Shown in pieces: positions 2,214 through 10,636 of a DNA stretch of 64,000 nt; the first letter of the stretch is position 1, and each line of letters starts with the position of its first letter. The stretch is taken from positions 2,170,001 through 2,234,000 of the forward strand of contig NZ_CP040786.1 of assembly GCF_021922925.1 (NCBI RefSeq). The letters run 5' to 3'. A program made the position numbers and the translations under genes. The notes beneath the pieces were generated by a model. The model searched no databases. It was not told the origin of the DNA and saw nothing but the letters and a program-made list of their open reading frames with translations. The DNA comes from Clavibacter phaseoli (GTDB lineage: Bacteria; Actinomycetota; Actinomycetes; Actinomycetales; Microbacteriaceae).

Positions 2214-2243
2214 TTGCACACGTGTGTGCAGGATCGCTAGCCT
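2214..2243 (+). promoter_or_regulatory. Promoter and overlapping operator of the TetR / pseudo-ABC / YhgE operon
   Basis: A -35-like TTGCAC (2214-2219), 18-bp spacer and -10-like TAGCCT (2238-2243) stand exactly 6 nt before the ATG, so the mRNA is probably leaderless. The -35 is embedded in TGCACACGTGTGTGCA (2215-2230), whose central CACACGTGTG is a perfect palindrome. That is a good candidate binding site for the TetR protein encoded immediately downstream, implying autoregulation of the whole operon. The binding itself is inferred. Confidence 0.65.
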
Positions 2244-2249
2244 GGTCGC

Positions 2250-2936
2250 ATGACGCCTCTCGCCTCCCCGCGCGCGCCCCGCAAGGACGCCGCGACCAAC
2301 CGCCAGGCCCTCGTCGACGCGGCGGTCGTCGCGCTCGACCGCGACCCGGACGCCTCCCTCGAGACCATCGCCGCCGCCGCCGGCCTCAGCCGCCGCGCCG
2401 TCTACGGCCACTTCGCCACGCGCGACGACCTGGTGCGCGAGGTGCTGCAGCGCGGCGCCCGGCGCATCGTCGAGTCGCTGGCCGGGATCACGCACGACGA
2501 CAGCCGGATCCACGTGGCGCTCATCGGCGCCCGGCTCTGGGCCGAGGTCGAGCAGGTGCGCGTGATGGCCCGGGTGGCCGTCCGCGGGCCGCTCGCGCGC
2601 GAGGTCGGCACCGAGCTGGCGCCGCTACGGGCCGAGCTGCAGCGGGTCGTCGAGCGCGGGATCGCGGCGGGCGAGCTGCGCGGCGACATCCCCGCGCCGA
2701 CGCTCGCGCGCCTCATCGAGGGCGGCGCGCTCGCGGTGCTCGACGAGGCGACGCGCAGCGACATCGGCCGCACCGAGGGCCACTCCCTCGTGATCCTCAC
2801 CTCGCTCGCCCTCTGCGGCCTCGACTGGCGCGCGGCGGGCGAGCTCATCACCGCCACCCCGGAGCTCCGCGAGGCCGCGCCGCGCGCCACCGACGCCGCT
2901 GCCCCTGCCACCGCCCGGACGGAGGCCGCGTCGTGA
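2250..2936 (+). CDS. TetR-family transcriptional regulator
   Basis: A 228-residue protein with an N-terminal TetR helix-turn-helix at about residues 12-58 (LETIAAAAGLSRRAVYGHFATRDDL, quoted here only as family-typical GLSRRAVYGHF) and an all-helical C-terminal ligand domain. The C-terminus ends in an Ala/Thr/Pro tail. It is first gene of an operon: the next gene starts on its stop (GTGA overlap). A palindrome sits over its own -35 region. TetR proteins usually repress and respond to small molecules; here the likely targets are its own operon, i.e. the dead ABC-like protein and the YhgE/Pip membrane protein. The inducer is unknown. Confidence 0.92.
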   Translation: MTPLASPRAPRKDAATNRQALVDAAVVALDRDPDASLETIAAAAGLSRRAVYGHFATRDDLVREVLQRGARRIVESLAGITHDDSRIHVALIGARLWAEVEQVRVMARVAVRGPLAREVGTELAPLRAELQRVVERGIAAGELRGDIPAPTLARLIEGGALAVLDEATRSDIGRTEGHSLVILTSLALCGLDWRAAGELITATPELREAAPRATDAAAPATARTEAAS

Positions 2937-3601
2937 TCGTCACGCTGACCGACGCGCGCGTCGGCGACGGCCCCGCGCCCGCCCTCCCTGCGATCTCGCT
3001 CTCCTACGGCGGCCCGGATCCGGTGGTCGCGATCGCCGAGACCGAGCTGCGCCCCACCGTCCTCTCCCTCGTGGCCTCCGGCCGCATGCGCATCGACGGC
3101 GGATCCCTCGCCCTCGACGGCGACGACTCGTCCGGGGTCGCCCTGCGCGTCGCCGAGCGGGTCGCGCTCGTGGACACCCCGCGGATCAACGAGCCCGCCG
3201 ACGACGTCACGCTCCGCGCGGTCGTCGCCGAGGAGCTCGCCCTCGCCGGGCACCGCTCGGGCCGGCACGAGGTCGGCGTGATCCTCGACGACCAGGGCCT
3301 CGCCGACCTGGCGCGCGCCCCGTTCTCGGCCGTCCCCGCGGTCGCCCGGATCCGCCTCCTCACCACGCTCGCCGCCTCGCGCGCGGGCGTCGAGGCCGTC
3401 GTCGTCACCTCGCCCGAGCGGCACGGCGGCGCGGTGGCCGAGTGGATGCGCGTCCTGCGCGACCTCGGCCGCTCCGGCACCGGCGTCCTCGTCGTCACGA
3501 GCGAGGCCGCCGCGGAGGCCATCGCCGCGCTCCCCGCCGACGACCCGGTCGCCGCCCCCGACTCCCCCACCCCCTCGATCGACGGAACGCAGACCCGATG
3601 A
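2933..3601 (+). CDS. Degenerate ABC-ATPase-like protein lacking catalytic motifs
   Basis: A 222-residue protein, GTG start overlapping the TetR stop. Its layout follows an ABC nucleotide-binding domain, but every catalytic site is replaced. The strand and Walker A position read VVAIAETELRPTVLSLVASG (31-50), with no P-loop glycines or lysine. RMRIDGGSLALDG (51-63) matches the usual 'sGev.ldG' strand. The signature region is APFSAVPAVARIRLL (129-143) instead of LSGGQ. Walker B is GVEAVVVTSPERHGG (152-166) with T-S in place of D-E. The switch strand is GVLVVTSE (184-191) with Ser for His. It therefore should not hydrolyse ATP. It overlaps the YhgE/Pip gene by ATGA, which suggests a structural or regulatory partner of that membrane protein. 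The alignment was made by eye; fold prediction would settle it. Confidence 0.75.
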   Translation: MIVTLTDARVGDGPAPALPAISLSYGGPDPVVAIAETELRPTVLSLVASGRMRIDGGSLALDGDDSSGVALRVAERVALVDTPRINEPADDVTLRAVVAEELALAGHRSGRHEVGVILDDQGLADLARAPFSAVPAVARIRLLTTLAASRAGVEAVVVTSPERHGGAVAEWMRVLRDLGRSGTGVLVVTSEAAAEAIAALPADDPVAAPDSPTPSIDGTQTR

Positions 3602-5703
3602 GACTCATCCCCCTGGTGCGCGCCGAGCTGACGCGCCTCACCGCCACCACCATGTCCAAGGTCGCGCTCGTCGCGCTCGTGCTGGTGCCCGTGCTCTACG
3701 GCGGCCTGTACCTCTGGGCGAACCAGGATCCGTACAGCAGCCTCGACAGGGTCCCCGCCGCGCTCGTCGTCGCGGACCAGGGCGCGACCGTCGACGGGGA
3801 GCCGGTCGACTACGGCGCCGACGTCGCGAAGGACGTCCTCGACGACGCCTCGTTCGACTGGCACGAGGTCTCCTCCGCGGAGGCGCGCACGGGCCTCGAG
3901 GACGGCACCTACGACTTCACGCTGACCATCCCGGCCGGCTTCTCGGCGGCGCTCTCCTCCTCCTCGGGCACGGATCCGCAGCAGGCCCGCGTAATCATGG
4001 CCACCGACGACGCGAACAGCTACCTCGCGACGACCATCGCGCAGCAGGCCGGCGCCCGGATCACGAAGTCGGTCGCCTCGCGCGTCGGCACGGAGGCCGC
4101 GGGCAAGCTCCTGCTCGGCCTCGCGGACGTGCGCTCCAGCCTCGGCGACGCCGCCTCGGGCGCGCAGCAGCTCGTCGACGGGACCGCCACCGCGCGCTCC
4201 GGCGCCGACTCGCTGGCGGACGGGAACGGGAAGCTCGCGACGGGCGCCGACTCGCTCTCCTCCGGCCTCGGGCAGCTCCGCTCGGGCACCGCGCAGCTCC
4301 CCGCGCAGACGCAGCAGCTCGCGACGGGCGCCGACCAGGTCGCGGACGGCGCATCCACGCTCTCCTCCGGCGCGAACGACCTGTCCGCGGGCGCCGCCGC
4401 GCTCACCCCGGGCGCGCAGCAGGTCGCGGCAGGCGCGCGCCAGGTGGCCGACGGGAACGCGCAGATCGCCGCGCTCGGATCCACCGCCTCGCAGGGCGCC
4501 GACGACCTCGCGTCGCGGGTCCCCGCCATCCGCCAGGCCATCGTCGACCGGATGACCGCGGCGGGCATCCCCCAGGACCAGATCGACCGGGATCTGCAGG
4601 ACCTCGACGGGCTCGGCACGGGCATCACGCAGGCCGCCGCGAAGACCGACGGCCTCAGCGCGCAGCTCACGAAGCTCGCCACCGGCAGCGAGCAGGTCGC
4701 CCAGGGCAGCGCGCAGGTCGCCGACGGCGCCGAGAAGCTGCAGACCGGATCCGCCGCGCTCGCCACCGGCGCGGGCACGCTCGCGTCCGGCAGCCGCCAG
4801 GTCGCGGACGGCGCCGACGCGCTGGCGAAGGCATCGCCCGCCCTCGCCGACGGGATCGCGCAGGCCGCCGACGGCAGCGCGACACTCGCCACCGGCGCGC
4901 ACTCCGCGGCCGACGGCGCGACCTCGCTCGCGACCGGCCTCGGCACGCTGCAGGACGGCGCGACGAAGCTGCGCGACGGGCTCGACTCCGGGCTCGACCA
5001 GATCCCCGCGTCCACCGAGGCCCAGCGCGGCGCGCAGGCCGACACGATCGGCGACCCGGTCGCGCTGCGGCAGGACGCCGTGACGCAGGCCGGCGAGTAC
5101 GGCGCCGGGCTCGCGCCGTTCTTCATCAGCCTCGCGGCGTGGATCGGGATCTACGCCCTGTTCCTCATCGTCAAGCCGCTGTCGCGCCGCGCGATCACGG
5201 CCCGGAAGGCGCCGCTCCGGATCACGCTCGCCGGCTGGCTGACGCCCGCGCTCCTCGGCGTCGTGCAGATGGCCGGCCTCTACGCGATCGTCGCCGGCGC
5301 GCTCGGCTTCCGCATCGCCCACCCGCTCGCCATGTACGGGACCATGGTGCTCGCCTCGATCACGTTCGCGGCCATCATCCTGGCGCTCAACGTGCTGCTC
5401 GGCAGCGTCGGCCAGTTCCTCGGGCTGGTGCTCATGGTCGTGCAGCTCGTCACCGCGGGCGGCACGTTCCCCTGGCAGACCCTGCCCGGCCCGCTCGCCG
5501 CGCTGCACCACGTGCTCCCGATGAGCTACGCGGTGGATGCGCTGCGGCAGCTCATGTACGGCGGCGACCTCGGGCAGGCGGCCCAGGACGCCGGCGTGCT
5601 CGCGCTGTGGCTGGTCGCGGGACTCGCGGTGGCGCTGGCCGGGGCGATCCGGATCACGTCGCACCGCACGCTGCGCGACCTCCGTCCGTCGCTCATCGGC
5701 TGA
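3598..5703 (+). CDS. YhgE/Pip-domain membrane protein (ABC-2-like permease)
   Basis: A 701-residue protein. It has one N-terminal membrane helix (about 20-42, ending LYGGLYLWANQDPY, the YhgE/Pip hallmark), then a long extracytoplasmic region, then five C-terminal membrane helices (about 505-690) with the ABC-2-like segment. Residues ~175-495 hold many degenerate repeats of the type L-x2-GA-x2-L/V-x-DGA (e.g. QVADGASTLSSGANDLSAG), predicted as a long helical stalk. Relatives include the phage infection protein Pip of lactococci and YueB-like receptors, and some act in export. The ATG overlaps the stop of the ATPase-like gene, so the two are translationally coupled. Function here is unknown; export across the envelope is the best guess. 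Confidence 0.9.
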   Translation: MRLIPLVRAELTRLTATTMSKVALVALVLVPVLYGGLYLWANQDPYSSLDRVPAALVVADQGATVDGEPVDYGADVAKDVLDDASFDWHEVSSAEARTGLEDGTYDFTLTIPAGFSAALSSSSGTDPQQARVIMATDDANSYLATTIAQQAGARITKSVASRVGTEAAGKLLLGLADVRSSLGDAASGAQQLVDGTATARSGADSLADGNGKLATGADSLSSGLGQLRSGTAQLPAQTQQLATGADQVADGASTLSSGANDLSAGAAALTPGAQQVAAGARQVADGNAQIAALGSTASQGADDLASRVPAIRQAIVDRMTAAGIPQDQIDRDLQDLDGLGTGITQAAAKTDGLSAQLTKLATGSEQVAQGSAQVADGAEKLQTGSAALATGAGTLASGSRQVADGADALAKASPALADGIAQAADGSATLATGAHSAADGATSLATGLGTLQDGATKLRDGLDSGLDQIPASTEAQRGAQADTIGDPVALRQDAVTQAGEYGAGLAPFFISLAAWIGIYALFLIVKPLSRRAITARKAPLRITLAGWLTPALLGVVQMAGLYAIVAGALGFRIAHPLAMYGTMVLASITFAAIILALNVLLGSVGQFLGLVLMVVQLVTAGGTFPWQTLPGPLAALHHVLPMSYAVDALRQLMYGGDLGQAAQDAGVLALWLVAGLAVALAGAIRITSHRTLRDLRPSLIG

Positions 5704-5781: not shown

Positions 5782-6462
5782 GTGTCATTCCTCGAGGACC
5801 GGGCGCCCTGGGGGTCGCCCGTCGTGCCGGGCATCCCGCTGCCGCCCTTCGCCGACGAGGCGGCGCACACGCGCTACGTGCGCATGCTGCAGACGCACCT
5901 CGCGCTCGTCGACGGCGGCGGGCCCGAGCTGCCGACCGTCGCGCTGGCCGTGGCGCTCGAGCGCCCGCGGTACCCCGCCCCCGGATCCGACCCCCGGCGC
6001 CTCACGCCGCTCGAGCTCTCGGTGAGCCTCACGTCGTGGTTCCCCGCGCCGTGGACGCCCGATGCCCTGGCGGACGCGCTCGTCGACGCCCCCTACGGCG
6101 GTCCGAGGCGCACGCGCGACGGCTGGCGCTGGATGGGCGATCCCGACTTCGCGGCCGCCCCCGCTCGCGGCGGCGGCTGGACCGTGACCCGCCATGAGCG
6201 CGGCGACGTCGACACCGCGCACCTCGCCGACGACCGCGACCTCGTGGTGCTCTGGCTGTCGCATCACCGCGGCCGCTTCGGCTACCCGCTTGCGCACGCG
6301 CACGACGACGCGGATGTCGCCGCGCTCGCCCCCGCCTCCCTCGCCGTGATCCGCAGCGACGCCGTCGACGCCGCGTTCCCGTACCGCGCGACGTGGCGCG
6401 AGGAGCGCGACCGGGCGCTGGCAGCGGCGCGCGCGGCTGACGGCGGCGGCGGCGCGCGCTAG
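5782..6462 (+). CDS. Hypothetical protein
   Basis: A 226-residue soluble protein with no signal peptide or membrane segment. The GTG start is preceded by GAGAGGG. The sequence is rich in Trp, Pro and Arg (e.g. SLTSWFPAPWTPDALADAL, GWRWMGDPDF), with an acidic HAHDDADVAALAP stretch. I do not recognise a family. The coding signal is good (G/C at third positions, proper protein-like composition) and it is flanked by a terminator upstream. It converges on the next gene with a 4-bp overlap of stop codons. Confidence 0.75.
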   Translation: MSFLEDRAPWGSPVVPGIPLPPFADEAAHTRYVRMLQTHLALVDGGGPELPTVALAVALERPRYPAPGSDPRRLTPLELSVSLTSWFPAPWTPDALADALVDAPYGGPRRTRDGWRWMGDPDFAAAPARGGGWTVTRHERGDVDTAHLADDRDLVVLWLSHHRGRFGYPLAHAHDDADVAALAPASLAVIRSDAVDAAFPYRATWREERDRALAAARAADGGGGAR

Positions 6463-7378: not shown

Positions 7379-7759
7379 ATGATCCGGCTGCAGAACGTCA
7401 CCTACCTCGTCCGCGACCACGACGAGGCGCTGGCGTTCCTGGTCGACGCGCTGGGCTTCGTCGTGCGCCAGGACGAGACGAGCGCGACCGGATGGCGCCG
7501 CGTCGTGGTGGGGCCCGAGGGCCAGGGAGTCGGCCTCGTCCTGGCGCTCGGCGACGACCCCGAGCGCGTGGGACGCCAGGCGGGGGACGACGTCGCGTTC
7601 TTCCTCGAGACCGACGACTTCGCCGCCCAGCACGCGCGCATGCTCGCGCACGGCGTCGTGTTCCGCGAGGAGCCGCGTCACGAGCCCTACGGCACCGTCG
7701 CGATCTTCGAGGACCCGTACGGAGCGCCGTGGGACCTCATCCAGCCGCCCGTCGCGTGA
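7379..7759 (+). CDS. VOC-family protein (glyoxalase/bleomycin-resistance fold)
   Basis: A 126-residue, single-domain protein of the vicinal-oxygen-chelate fold. It opens with LQNVTYLVRDHDEALAFLVD and ends with the family's second half YGTVAIFEDPYGAPWDLIQ. Such proteins bind or transform small molecules with or without a metal; the substrate is unknown. A -10-like TACGGT (7367-7372) stands exactly 6 nt before the ATG, so it is probably leaderless. The following gene starts on its stop codon. Confidence 0.87.
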   Translation: MIRLQNVTYLVRDHDEALAFLVDALGFVVRQDETSATGWRRVVVGPEGQGVGLVLALGDDPERVGRQAGDDVAFFLETDDFAAQHARMLAHGVVFREEPRHEPYGTVAIFEDPYGAPWDLIQPPVA

Positions 7760-8094
7760 CCGCCCGTCCGCCCGCCGGACCGGGGGATCCCGCGCGCCGC
7801 GTCCGGCGGCTGCGCGTCGTCGCCGTCGTCGCCCTCGCGGTGGCGGCGTGCGCGGTGCCGGTCGCGTTCCTCCCGGTGTGGGGATCCGCGGGCGGGCGCC
7901 TCGTGCCGCTCGCGGTGGTCCCGCTCGGCGGCGTCGTGGCGGTCGCGCTCGCGGCGCGGCTGCTCATCGGATCCGCCCGGCGCGACGAGAGGTCGGCCCG
8001 GCCGGACGTCGCGCTGCTCCTCGCGGGCGCGTTCGCGGCGCTGGGCGCGGTGCCCGCGCTGCTCGGGGCGGTGCTGGTCGTCGCGGGGCCCTGA
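7756..8094 (+). CDS. Small membrane protein, three predicted helices
   Basis: A 112-residue protein beginning VTARPPAGPG, GTG start overlapping the VOC stop (GTGA). Three hydrophobic segments (about 20-42, 49-70 and 86-110) are separated by short basic linkers (IGSARRDERSARPD). It is coupled to the VOC gene, but nothing in the sequence shows a functional link. No family recognised. Confidence 0.7.
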   Translation: MTARPPAGPGDPARRVRRLRVVAVVALAVAACAVPVAFLPVWGSAGGRLVPLAVVPLGGVVAVALAARLLIGSARRDERSARPDVALLLAGAFAALGAVPALLGAVLVVAGP

Positions 8095-8193
8095 CCGGAT
8101 CGCGCCCTGGGCCGGCAACGCCGACGCCCCCGCCGCCGGCCGTCCATCCGGCCGCCGCATCGCATTCACCCGCCGGCCCTACCGTGATCGTCC

Positions 8194-10119
8194 GTGACCC
8201 AGGACCCGACGACGTCTCCCTCCTCCTCCGCGCTGTCCCGACGCGGCTTCCTCCTCACGAGCGGCGCGGCCGGCGCGCTCGGCGTGGCCGGCCTCGGCGG
8301 GGCGCTGCCCGCGACCGCCGCGACCGCCGGCGACGTCGCGGACGGCGCGACGGCGAAGGCGCCCGCCGCGCAGCAGGGATCCGGCGCGCGCTGGAAGCCC
8401 GACACCGCGTCGCCGCGCTTCACGATCGCCGTGCTGCCGGACACGCAGTACCTCTTCGACGGCGCGTCGATCCACCCGGAGCCGCTCGAGGCGTCGCTCC
8501 GCTACGTGCTCGCCGAGCGCGACCGCCACAACATCGTCTTCCTCGCGCACCTCGGCGACGTGACGCAGAACGGCGCCGCGAACGAGATCCAGGCCGCGAG
8601 CGCGCAGTTCACGCTGCTCGACAAGGCGGGCGCCGCGTGGAGCGTCCTCGCCGGCAACCACGACGTCGACGGCAGCACCGACGACCAGCGCGGCAGCACG
8701 CCCTACCTCGACGCGTTCGGCCCGAAGCGGTTCCGGAAGTCGCCGAGCTACCGCGGATCCAGTCCCGACGGCTACAACTCGTTCCACACCTTCACGGCGG
8801 GCGGCCGCGACTGGCTCATCCTCGCGCTCGACTGGCGGACGAGCGCCCGCGGCGTCGAGTGGGCGCGCGGCGTGCTGGCGGCGCACCCGACGCTGCCGGT
8901 GATCCTCACGGCGCACGACATCGTCGACTCGCGGACCGACGGATCCGCCGTGCTCGACGACTACGGCCAGGGCCTCTGGGACTCCTTCACCTCCCAGCAC
9001 GACCAGATCTTCCTCACCCTCAACGGCCACTACTGGAAGCCCGGCCGCACCACGATGAAGAACCGGGCGGGCCACGACGTCGCGATGCACCTCGTGAACT
9101 ACCAGGACCGCTACTACGGCGGCGCCGCGATGATCCGGCTGTACCACGTCGACCTCGAGCGGGACGCGATCGACGTCGAGACCCTGTCGCCCTTCATCCT
9201 GGGCGGCGGGCTCGGCACGGGCAACGAGCTCGCGGACGAGGAGGCGGCCCTCTCGGGCGACGTCGACCGGTTCACGGTGAGCGTCGACTTCGAGCAGCGC
9301 TTCGCCGGGTTCGCGCCCGTCCCGACGCGCGCCGCCCGACCGGCCGCGCAGATGCTCGTGCCCGGCACGGTCGCGTACTGGCGCTTCGACGGGCAGACGG
9401 ACGGATCCGCGCTCGGCACGACCGCGCGCATCCCCGACGCGTCCGGCCGCGGCAACGACCTCGTCGTCGCGAACCGCGCGGGAGCGGCGCCCGGATCCCT
9501 GCGCTTCGGGTCCGCGCACCACGACGACCAGCCCGGCTTCGGCAGCCTCACGCTCACGGGCGGCAAGAGGTCCGGCGACTACCTGCGCACCGTCGCCGGC
9601 GCCCCGCTCGACGCCGCGACCTTCCGCCAGGGCTACACGGTCGAGGCGTTCGTCCGCATCCCCGCGGACTTCGACGGCGGCGCCGACGGCTTCAGCGCGA
9701 TCCTCTCCCGCGCCGCCTCCGCGAAGGACGCGGGCAAGACGCCGGGCGACGCGGGCGACCCGGACGAGCCCGCCGCGACGCTCAGCGTCTCCGGCAGCCG
9801 CGAGATCCAGTGGTGCGTCTACCCGACCACGCAGCAGGGATCCCTCACCAACTGGTCGCACGAGCTGCCGGCCACGACATGGTGGCACGTGGCGGTCGTG
9901 AACGACAGCCAGCACACGACGATGTACGTCGACGGCTGCCCGGTGGTGCGGAACCCGACGACCGCGAACCGCGGGCTCGCGGCGGCGTCGCCCGCGACCT
10001 CGTGGCTCCTCGGCGCGAACCTCTACGGCGGCGAGCTCGACCACGTGCTCCCGGCGTCGATCGGCGACGTCCGCATCGTGGAGCGCGCGCTGAGGCCGTC
10101 GGAGTTCATGATCGCGTGA
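8194..10119 (+). CDS. Tat-exported calcineurin-like phosphoesterase with LamG-like C-terminal domain
   Basis: A 641-residue protein. The N-terminus has a twin-arginine signal (SRRGFLL, residues 15-21, then an Ala-rich core to about 44). The phosphoesterase domain (about 75-330) shows the metal-binding set: D83 in PDTQY, GD at 121-122, GNHD at 154-157, then LTAHD and LNGHYWKPGR. Residues ~385-641 form a concanavalin/LamG-like beta domain (AYWRFDGQ..., YTVEAFVRIP, WWHVAVVND, TMYVDG, IGDVRIVERAL). Members of this group act outside the cytoplasm on phosphoesters, probably bound to polysaccharide or wall via LamG; the substrate is unknown. GTG start with TACCGT (8180-8185) 8 nt upstream. Confidence 0.9.
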   Translation: MTQDPTTSPSSSALSRRGFLLTSGAAGALGVAGLGGALPATAATAGDVADGATAKAPAAQQGSGARWKPDTASPRFTIAVLPDTQYLFDGASIHPEPLEASLRYVLAERDRHNIVFLAHLGDVTQNGAANEIQAASAQFTLLDKAGAAWSVLAGNHDVDGSTDDQRGSTPYLDAFGPKRFRKSPSYRGSSPDGYNSFHTFTAGGRDWLILALDWRTSARGVEWARGVLAAHPTLPVILTAHDIVDSRTDGSAVLDDYGQGLWDSFTSQHDQIFLTLNGHYWKPGRTTMKNRAGHDVAMHLVNYQDRYYGGAAMIRLYHVDLERDAIDVETLSPFILGGGLGTGNELADEEAALSGDVDRFTVSVDFEQRFAGFAPVPTRAARPAAQMLVPGTVAYWRFDGQTDGSALGTTARIPDASGRGNDLVVANRAGAAPGSLRFGSAHHDDQPGFGSLTLTGGKRSGDYLRTVAGAPLDAATFRQGYTVEAFVRIPADFDGGADGFSAILSRAASAKDAGKTPGDAGDPDEPAATLSVSGSREIQWCVYPTTQQGSLTNWSHELPATTWWHVAVVNDSQHTTMYVDGCPVVRNPTTANRGLAAASPATSWLLGANLYGGELDHVLPASIGDVRIVERALRPSEFMIA

Positions 10120-10120
10120 C

Positions 10121-10142
10121 GGCCCGGACGACCGCCCGGGCC
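10121..10142. terminator. Bidirectional terminator-like hairpin
   Basis: GGCCCGG, 8-nt loop, CCGGGCC between the convergent ends of the phosphoesterase and flavin-reductase genes. It is only 7 bp but all G-C, and touches the flavin-reductase stop codon. Confidence 0.5.
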
Positions 10143-10636
10143 TAGAGCTCCGGGTGGTCGTCTTCGAGCAGGTGGAAGCGGCGGTCGCGGTAGATGAGCG
10201 GCGGGGCCGGCTCGCCGAGGATCACGTCGAGCACCTCGGCGACGACCAGCACGGATCCGCCGACCGGCACGGTCTGGATGGTGCGGCAGCGGAGGGCGGC
10301 GCGCGCGTCGGCGAGCAGCGGCTCGCCGGTCGGCAGCTCCTGGAAGCCCTGCTCCTCGGTGAAGCGCGGCGACCCGGACACGGCGAAGGAGCGGGCGAGC
10401 GCGGCGTGCTGCCCCGCGAGCAGGTGCACGACGTAGCTGTCGGCCTCGAGGATCGCGCCGGCGGATCCCGTGGCGCGCGTCACCGAGAACGAGAGCGCGG
10501 GCGGATCCACCGAGAGCGACGCGACGCTCGATGCGGTGAGGCCGGAGGGCCCGTCCGCGGTGCGCGCGGTGATGAGCGCGACGCCGGCCGGGTGACCGCG
10601 GAACGCGGCCTTGAAGAGGTCGGGGTCGGCGCTCAC
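10142..10636 (-). CDS. Flavin reductase family protein
   Basis: A 164-residue FMN-binding split-barrel protein of the HpaC/flavin-reductase-like family. Typical elements are GVALITARTADGPSGLTASSVASLS near residues 17-40, a conserved SFSV strand, and the closing PLIYRDRRFHLL. Such enzymes reduce FMN or FAD with NAD(P)H and hand the reduced flavin to a partner monooxygenase or an iron centre. It starts with GTG overlapping the ferredoxin stop codon, so the two proteins form an operon under the SoxR-type promoter. Flavin reductases are known SoxR targets in Streptomyces, which fits. Confidence 0.9.
   Translation of the reverse strand: MSADPDLFKAAFRGHPAGVALITARTADGPSGLTASSVASLSVDPPALSFSVTRATGSAGAILEADSYVVHLLAGQHAALARSFAVSGSPRFTEEQGFQELPTGEPLLADARAALRCRTIQTVPVGGSVLVVAEVLDVILGEPAPPLIYRDRRFHLLEDDHPEL

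Follow-up and report, generated by a model that had tools for sequence, protein, structure and literature searches.

A 64,000-nucleotide stretch of Clavibacter phaseoli DNA (contig NZ_CP040786.1, positions 2,170,001 to 2,234,000; referred to here as the window) carries a three-gene operon in which a degenerate relative of ATP-binding cassette (ABC) ATPases stands between a TetR-family regulator and a YhgE/Pip membrane protein. Judged by profile comparison, the middle protein is a homologue of ABC nucleotide-binding domains (NBDs), and it is probably a non-hydrolysing pseudo-NBD, built into a YhgE/Pip dimer as a permanent component on the cytoplasmic side and under TetR control. The arrangement suggests that the engine of an ATP-driven pump has been turned into a fixed part.

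The genes lie on the forward strand and encode a TetR-family regulator of 228 amino acids (positions 2250-2936; TetR_N, PF00440, E 1.1e-7), the middle protein of 222 amino acids, which has a GTG start and is assigned by profile homology to ABC NBDs (2933-3601), and a YhgE/Pip membrane protein of 701 amino acids (3598-5703) that scores above the cut-offs of both TIGR03061 and TIGR03062. An initial annotation, made from the sequence alone, had described three genes joined by GTGA and ATGA overlaps, and the coordinates bear this out: four bases are shared at each junction, GTGA (2933-2936) between tetR and the middle gene and ATGA (3598-3601) between the middle gene and yhgE.

Homology and motif state of the middle protein

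Taken singly, the middle protein has no Pfam, NCBIfam or PDB match better than E 0.028. A 14-member alignment of the protein and its relatives (A1) yields a profile that finds ABC ATPases in the PDB, with EcfA the best (E 2.4e-6); only three of the 14 members match PF00005 singly (best E 0.00069). When A1 was compared by hhalign with 20 canonical ABC ATPases of the same genome, the two aligned at 97.5% (E 6e-12) over 181 colinear columns, against at most 2.5% for 20 column-shuffled controls and 0.2% for a reversed one, and nine members of the window protein's own family alone reached 96.6%. The profile of a second alignment, with 13 members and distant relatives added (A3), matches 479 PDB sequences at E <=0.001; among the 60 shown, the NBDs of ABCA3 (2e-26), ABCA4 and ABCA7 are at the top, and PF00005 is matched by nine of the 13 members. 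Homology to the ABC NBD as a fold family is found over the whole domain. A Resolvase match of the middle protein (E 0.028; best 0.00089 among A1 members), a single-sequence PDB match to a dipeptidase (E 0.12) and matches of the A1 profile to eL14 and Rab11 (E 0.0066 and worse) were set aside as chance.

Motif positions were read in the register of the hhalign comparison between A1 and the canonical proteins, and all lie on the forward strand. At the former Walker A the window protein reads AETELRPT (residues 35-42; 3035..3058), aligned to GPSGCGKS; several Microbacteriaceae carry a similar ETxQRPTVL there. The Gln of the former Q-loop falls at T82, next to a D81 that is invariant in A1 (3173..3178), and the LSGGQ signature is replaced by VPAVA (residues 134-138; 3332..3346). 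The former Walker B and D-loop region, AVVVTSPERHGG (3395..3430), has T159-S160 in place of D-E; P161, R163 and W171 are all three invariant in A1. The former H-switch reads VLVVTSE, with Ser190 in place of His (3485..3505). The window protein thus has none of the ATPase hallmarks, be it Walker A GxxGxGK[ST], LSGGQ, the Walker B Asp with the catalytic Glu, or the H-switch His. Among 30 canonical ABC ATPases of the same genome, Walker A is present in 30/30, LSGGQ in 29/30 and D-E in 30/30; these are the 30 best of 98 PF00005 matches, each read in the frame with most motif matches, a choice that favours the control. The initial annotation had called the middle protein ABC-like and had listed the P-loop (ELRPTV), LSGGQ, the Walker B D-E and the switch His as replaced, the last two by T-S and Ser; each substitution proved right in the hhalign register, and the hhalign and PDB profile matches agree with an ABC relationship and not with an unrelated fold. 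It had also held that orthologues with intact Walker A and B would speak against it; none are found among the close orthologues, and some distant members of the YhgE-linked family keep the Walker A Lys (10/116 in the census below, and L201 and L203 outside it).

The middle gene is in frame, at 92-100% identity, in all 18 Clavibacter genomes searched (the window genome included), and its six named relatives are all from Clavibacter. Median dN/dS is 0.19 for tetR, 0.26 for the middle gene and 0.22 for yhgE (293 pairs from 25 Clavibacter sequences, which include some strains twice, from two sources). Because 0.26 is near the values of its neighbours, the middle gene is taken to be under selection and is not decaying in Clavibacter. 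The former motif sites vary little among the 25 sequences, and residues 35-46 occur in two variants.

Linkage to YhgE/Pip across Actinomycetia

To place the operon in a wider context we used a sample of 296 Actinomycetia genomes. The A1 profile gives 43 matches at E <=5.9e-16, and all 43 lie on the same strand and no more than 1000 bases upstream of a YhgE/Pip N-terminal match. In the reverse census, 129 YhgE N-terminal matches above the curated cut-off were found in 99 genomes, and the surroundings of all 129 were inspected. A pseudo-NBD match (E <1e-5) lies upstream at 116 of them, 95 as a standalone protein and 21 within an MMPL C-terminus; at four further loci (L180, L186, L192, L198) the end of the MMPL protein has, by eye, the look of a shrunken relic. 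When every MMPL-fused member is left out of the profile, it still recovers 93 of the 94 standalone rows that were mapped by machine and 21 of the 25 MMPL rows. The A1 profile also matches long frames in L105-L107, but these show Walker A and signature patterns and were rejected as ordinary ABC proteins, and internal TGA codons suspected in the G033 and G177 matches proved to be each gene's own stop near the end of the match. Eight neighbour genes taken from the f22, f33 and f35 loci have no consistent theme. We note that locus L153 (G264) has two neighbouring YhgE genes, and that the pseudo-NBD before one of them appears truncated in its N-terminal half.

Outside the class, eight of ten loci inspected lack an upstream NBD within ~1500 bases. 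The other two, L201 and L203, have an upstream NBD with an intact Walker A, no LSGGQ, and D in place of the catalytic Glu. The window protein has no match among plasmid sequences. The L100 protein matches 76 plasmid records, and the one examined, Rhodococcus pLRE138, carries a real pair: on this plasmid, typed mobilizable, a pseudo-NBD with GQAGAART at the Walker A position is followed by YhgE/Pip (L252, 5064-7688). One public record labels such a pair 'ATP-binding cassette domain-containing protein' and 'YhgE/Pip domain-containing protein', and the first label hides the degeneracy.

Across the 116 census rows the Walker A Lys column holds R in 71, K in 10, H in 10, P in 9, Q in 5 and other residues or a gap in 11. 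LSGGQ is present in 0 of the 105 readable rows (11 of the 116 are gapped there, and two pattern matches are off register), and the catalytic Glu column has D in 55 and E in one of 107 readable rows. The switch His is found at or beside its site in 4 of the 116 rows, with a fifth uncertain and ~14 gapped. In a tree rooted on a canonical ABC protein, 102 family domains fall together (support 0.915) apart from eight canonical ABCs, although these eight did not form a clade of their own until the root was placed; parsimony on this tree gives four changes at the Lys position. From the motif counts, the state of L201 and L203 and the tree, LSGGQ and the catalytic Glu seem to have been lost ancestrally and the Lys later. 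The family offers a naturally occurring gradation in the loss of the ABC motor.

The YhgE/Pip protein, the MMPL-fused branch and the predicted operator

The third protein of the operon is a YhgE/Pip member (TIGR03061, E 2.9e-51, 173.3 bits against a cut-off of 96.15; TIGR03062, E 4.5e-63, 212.6 against 102.2). Its C-terminal part matches ABC2_membrane_3 (PF12698, E 3.1e-21, 76.3 against 31.6 bits, best stretch residues 497-680). The membrane domain typical of ABC-2 or ABCA-type exporters is thus present, and a catalytic NBD is missing from the operon, where the neighbouring NBD is degenerate; an intact NBD encoded at a distance might act in trans. The two membrane parts, N- and C-terminal, are separated by an LxxG heptad-repeat region (~4156..5037, forward strand; eight stretches matching TIGR03057, limits set by eye). 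In the C-terminal part a loop, KPLSRRAITARKAPLRITLAG (5173..5235, forward strand), joins the first hydrophobic segment to the second, at a position that we take to correspond to the NBD contact site of ABC-2 exporters. It is predicted to lie on the cytoplasmic side and is a candidate docking (coupling) loop for the pseudo-NBD. The median net charge of this loop is +3 in 99 paired YhgE proteins (two MMPL loci with a relic seen by eye only included) versus 0 in 14 unpaired ones, and an acidic residue occurs in 14/99 versus 14/14, or in 13/97 versus 12/12 once the two relic rows and two poorly aligned unpaired rows are dropped. Two unpaired loops are basic (L184, +2; L196, +4). The L159 protein is near the paired type in sequence, has no partner, and has an acid-rich loop.

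An MMPL protein precedes YhgE at 25 of the 129 loci, and 21 of these are the MMPL proteins with a C-terminal pseudo-NBD match. The genome from which the window comes offers an example, since its second YhgE/Pip above the cut-off is preceded by a TetR gene and by a 985-amino-acid MMPL protein (PF03176, E 2e-85) that carries the pseudo-NBD at its C-terminus (L058, G000:C1:1691000-1705000; 7630-10587, minus strand, and the YhgE frame downstream). This C-terminus was undetected by our first, narrower profiles, is found at E 2.2e-20 by a family profile built without L058, and contains no P-loop. Of the 25 MMPL frames adjoining YhgE, 24 keep both DY motifs, the sites to which proton transport by MMPL proteins is ascribed. 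In Saccharopolyspora hirsuta, according to a table in PMC9782250, cholesterol induces an MMPL gene 3.3-fold and a YhgE/Pip gene 3.8-fold; the locus tags of the two genes are neighbours.

Just before tetR, at 2214..2231 (no strand is assigned), lies a palindrome, TTGCACACGTGTGTGCAG (also TTGCACACGTGTGTGCA), which is a predicted TetR operator. It overlaps a -35-like TTGCAC, and a -10-like TAGCCT was assigned by eye. The pattern, derived from the site itself, has 0 matches in 100 shuffles of the window. All 24 Clavibacter sequences inspected by eye (not all of them independent) have TTGCACA...TGTGCA ahead of tetR, and the exact 10-mer core, CACACGTGTG, is found in nine of the 24. A looser pattern occurs in seven of 13 relative loci (L037-L049); the pattern was not found in the other six, nor at the MMPL-fused YhgE/Pip locus of the same genome. 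Upstream of YhgE, 464 kb contain 14 occurrences, against 0 in 366 kb downstream; four of the 14 stem from two sites that were each counted twice, and a further two are weak forms. The operon thus combines a TetR_N domain with a nearby conserved palindrome, and TetR may act on its own operon with the TGCACAnnnnTGTGCA site as its predicted target. The double-counted sites precede tandem YhgE genes without a pseudo-NBD (L176, L177). Such tandem YhgE-YhgE pairs occur in L176, L177 and several loci outside the class; those of L176 and L177 have no pseudo-NBD, yet have an upstream palindrome of the window-operon kind.

Elsewhere in the window, a reading frame of 226 amino acids without a Pfam match (5782-6462) lies just downstream of the operon, and positions 12-326 hold a C-terminal piece that by eye resembles an SbcC/Rad50-type ATPase (FSGGE, FVDEGFGTLD).

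Interpretation and relation to known systems

The sequence data fit a scheme in which an ABC ATPase domain would have kept its fold, lost nucleotide hydrolysis and been retained by YhgE/Pip; both the absence of hydrolysis and the physical pairing are what we infer. The pseudo-NBD would dock at the cytoplasmic loop in the ABC-2-like half of its membrane partner and stabilise or gate that partner without an ATP cycle, and TetR bound at the palindrome would keep all three genes repressed for as long as no envelope-active ligand is there. Where it is fused to MMPL, the pseudo-NBD would link YhgE/Pip to a pump driven by protons. The cargo would most likely be a lipid or an amphipathic small molecule, the weakest step of the scheme. 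A more far-reaching version, which we consider doubtful, is that the ATP motor was retired in steps, LSGGQ and the Glu going first and the Walker A Lys afterwards, and that the NBD survives as a clutch for YhgE/Pip; in one branch this clutch would have been fused to an MMPL protein whose DY motifs are intact, and the ABC-2-like partner would be driven or positioned by an RND pump acting by way of a dead ABC domain, a motor swap between transporter superfamilies.

Several observations weigh against a general, conserved and inactive partner. The census sample is heavy in one genus (g64), and loci that went into building the census profile supply 23 of the 116 rows. Used alone, the A1 profile recovers 91 of the 94 standalone rows and only six of the 25 MMPL rows at E 1e-5, and several matches are partial; because of these recoveries and those of the profile without MMPL-fused members, we regard the standalone result as solid and the MMPL C-termini as remote, partly partial relatives. 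The correlation between loop and partner is confounded by shared ancestry. AlphaFold2 applied to the window protein and six Clavibacter relatives (seven sequences, >=92% identical) gave a pLDDT of 36 and was not used, and because of this the ABC-fold assignment rests on sequence profiles. Nine of the 129 YhgE/Pip genes have no such domain upstream (L159, L175, L176 twice, L177 twice, L184, L196 and L199), and because of them the pseudo-NBD cannot be universally needed by YhgE/Pip. An A3 search of ten genomes with domain-less YhgE loci found matches in nine (best E 2.6e-21), none of which adjoin those YhgE genes, so these genomes may hold a copy at a distance. The initial annotation had proposed a domain kept as an obligate partner of YhgE/Pip, and had suggested a profile search in other actinobacteria with an alignment of the motifs. 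A search of this kind found the pairing to be general (116/129 loci), as is the motif loss, and that the domain is kept accords with the 43/43 and 116/129 adjacencies; the word obligate goes too far, given the nine domain-less genes and the eight of ten loci outside the class. Finally, the Walker B Asp is retained in 70 of the 107 readable rows and the Walker A Lys in 10 of the 116, and because these residues survive some family members may still bind nucleotide.

Those residues, together with the full Walker A of L201 and L203, speak for a middle protein that can still bind ATP or hydrolyse it slowly, whether by itself or paired with an intact NBD encoded elsewhere, much as heterodimeric exporters pair a degenerate site with a working one, and for YhgE/Pip as an ordinary ATP-driven exporter. 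We think this unlikely, given that LSGGQ is found in 0/105 rows and the catalytic Glu in 1/107, that the window protein is without every motif, and that the upstream positions, the only ones covered, yielded no recognisable intact ABC gene. We hold it likewise improbable that the pseudo-NBD has no part in a transport cycle and instead helps YhgE/Pip to assemble or stay stable, or acts as a sensor in the cytoplasm. In favour of such a role, the conserved PxR...W stretch (often PDRHGG) that replaces the Walker B and D-loop in A1 suggests a new binding function; against it, the role by itself explains neither the persistence of the whole ABC core nor the loop correlation.

The graded degeneration, from members with an intact Walker A to shrunken MMPL C-termini, and the truncated copy in L153 would also fit a relic, an ATPase that lost its function and is drifting away. 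Against this stand the dN/dS of 0.26, the position of all 43 strong matches beside YhgE and the conservation of the degenerate sites in Clavibacter, and we consider a decaying relic very unlikely. That the middle gene is a sequencing or gene-model artefact is scarcely credible, because it is in frame in 18/18 Clavibacter genomes, and nothing was found in favour of it. The conserved dead NBD next to actinobacterial YhgE/Pip genes ties this family to ABC exporters and supplies it with a candidate partner; if the MMPL-fused branch does work as one machine, two transporter superfamilies would be linked. A literature search, whose coverage left out many subscription journals and preprints, found no description of YhgE/Pip with a degenerate ATPase.

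Among known systems, the closest is the YhgE/Pip family itself, PIP family 9.B.74 of TCDB, for which ABC-2 homologues are noted (PMC3924187). Its members include the lactococcal PIP and enterococcal PIPEF phage-infection proteins and, more distantly, YueB and EsaA; the consulted sections of PMC4999554 present them as phage entry factors and relatives of the type VII secretion protein EsaA with no known function of their own. The third gene of the window operon is alike in passing both NCBIfam cut-offs and differs in its operon-encoded degenerate NBD; no NBD partner is mentioned for the family in those sections. ABCA-type and ABC-2 exporters resemble the pair in the A3 matches to the NBDs of ABCA3, ABCA4 and ABCA7 and in the ABC2_membrane_3 domain of YhgE, but ABCA NBDs hydrolyse ATP and here the catalytic motifs are gone. 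In ABCG5/G8, TAP and CFTR, ABC exporters with one degenerate NBD, a degenerate site is likewise tolerated and conserved and one working site is kept; here, in contrast, there is one NBD gene per membrane gene, and no intact NBD was recognised upstream. We know of no ABC-like domains in MMPL (RND) transporters, which precede YhgE at 25 of the 129 loci, whereas the window operon itself, with its standalone pseudo-NBD, has no MMPL gene.

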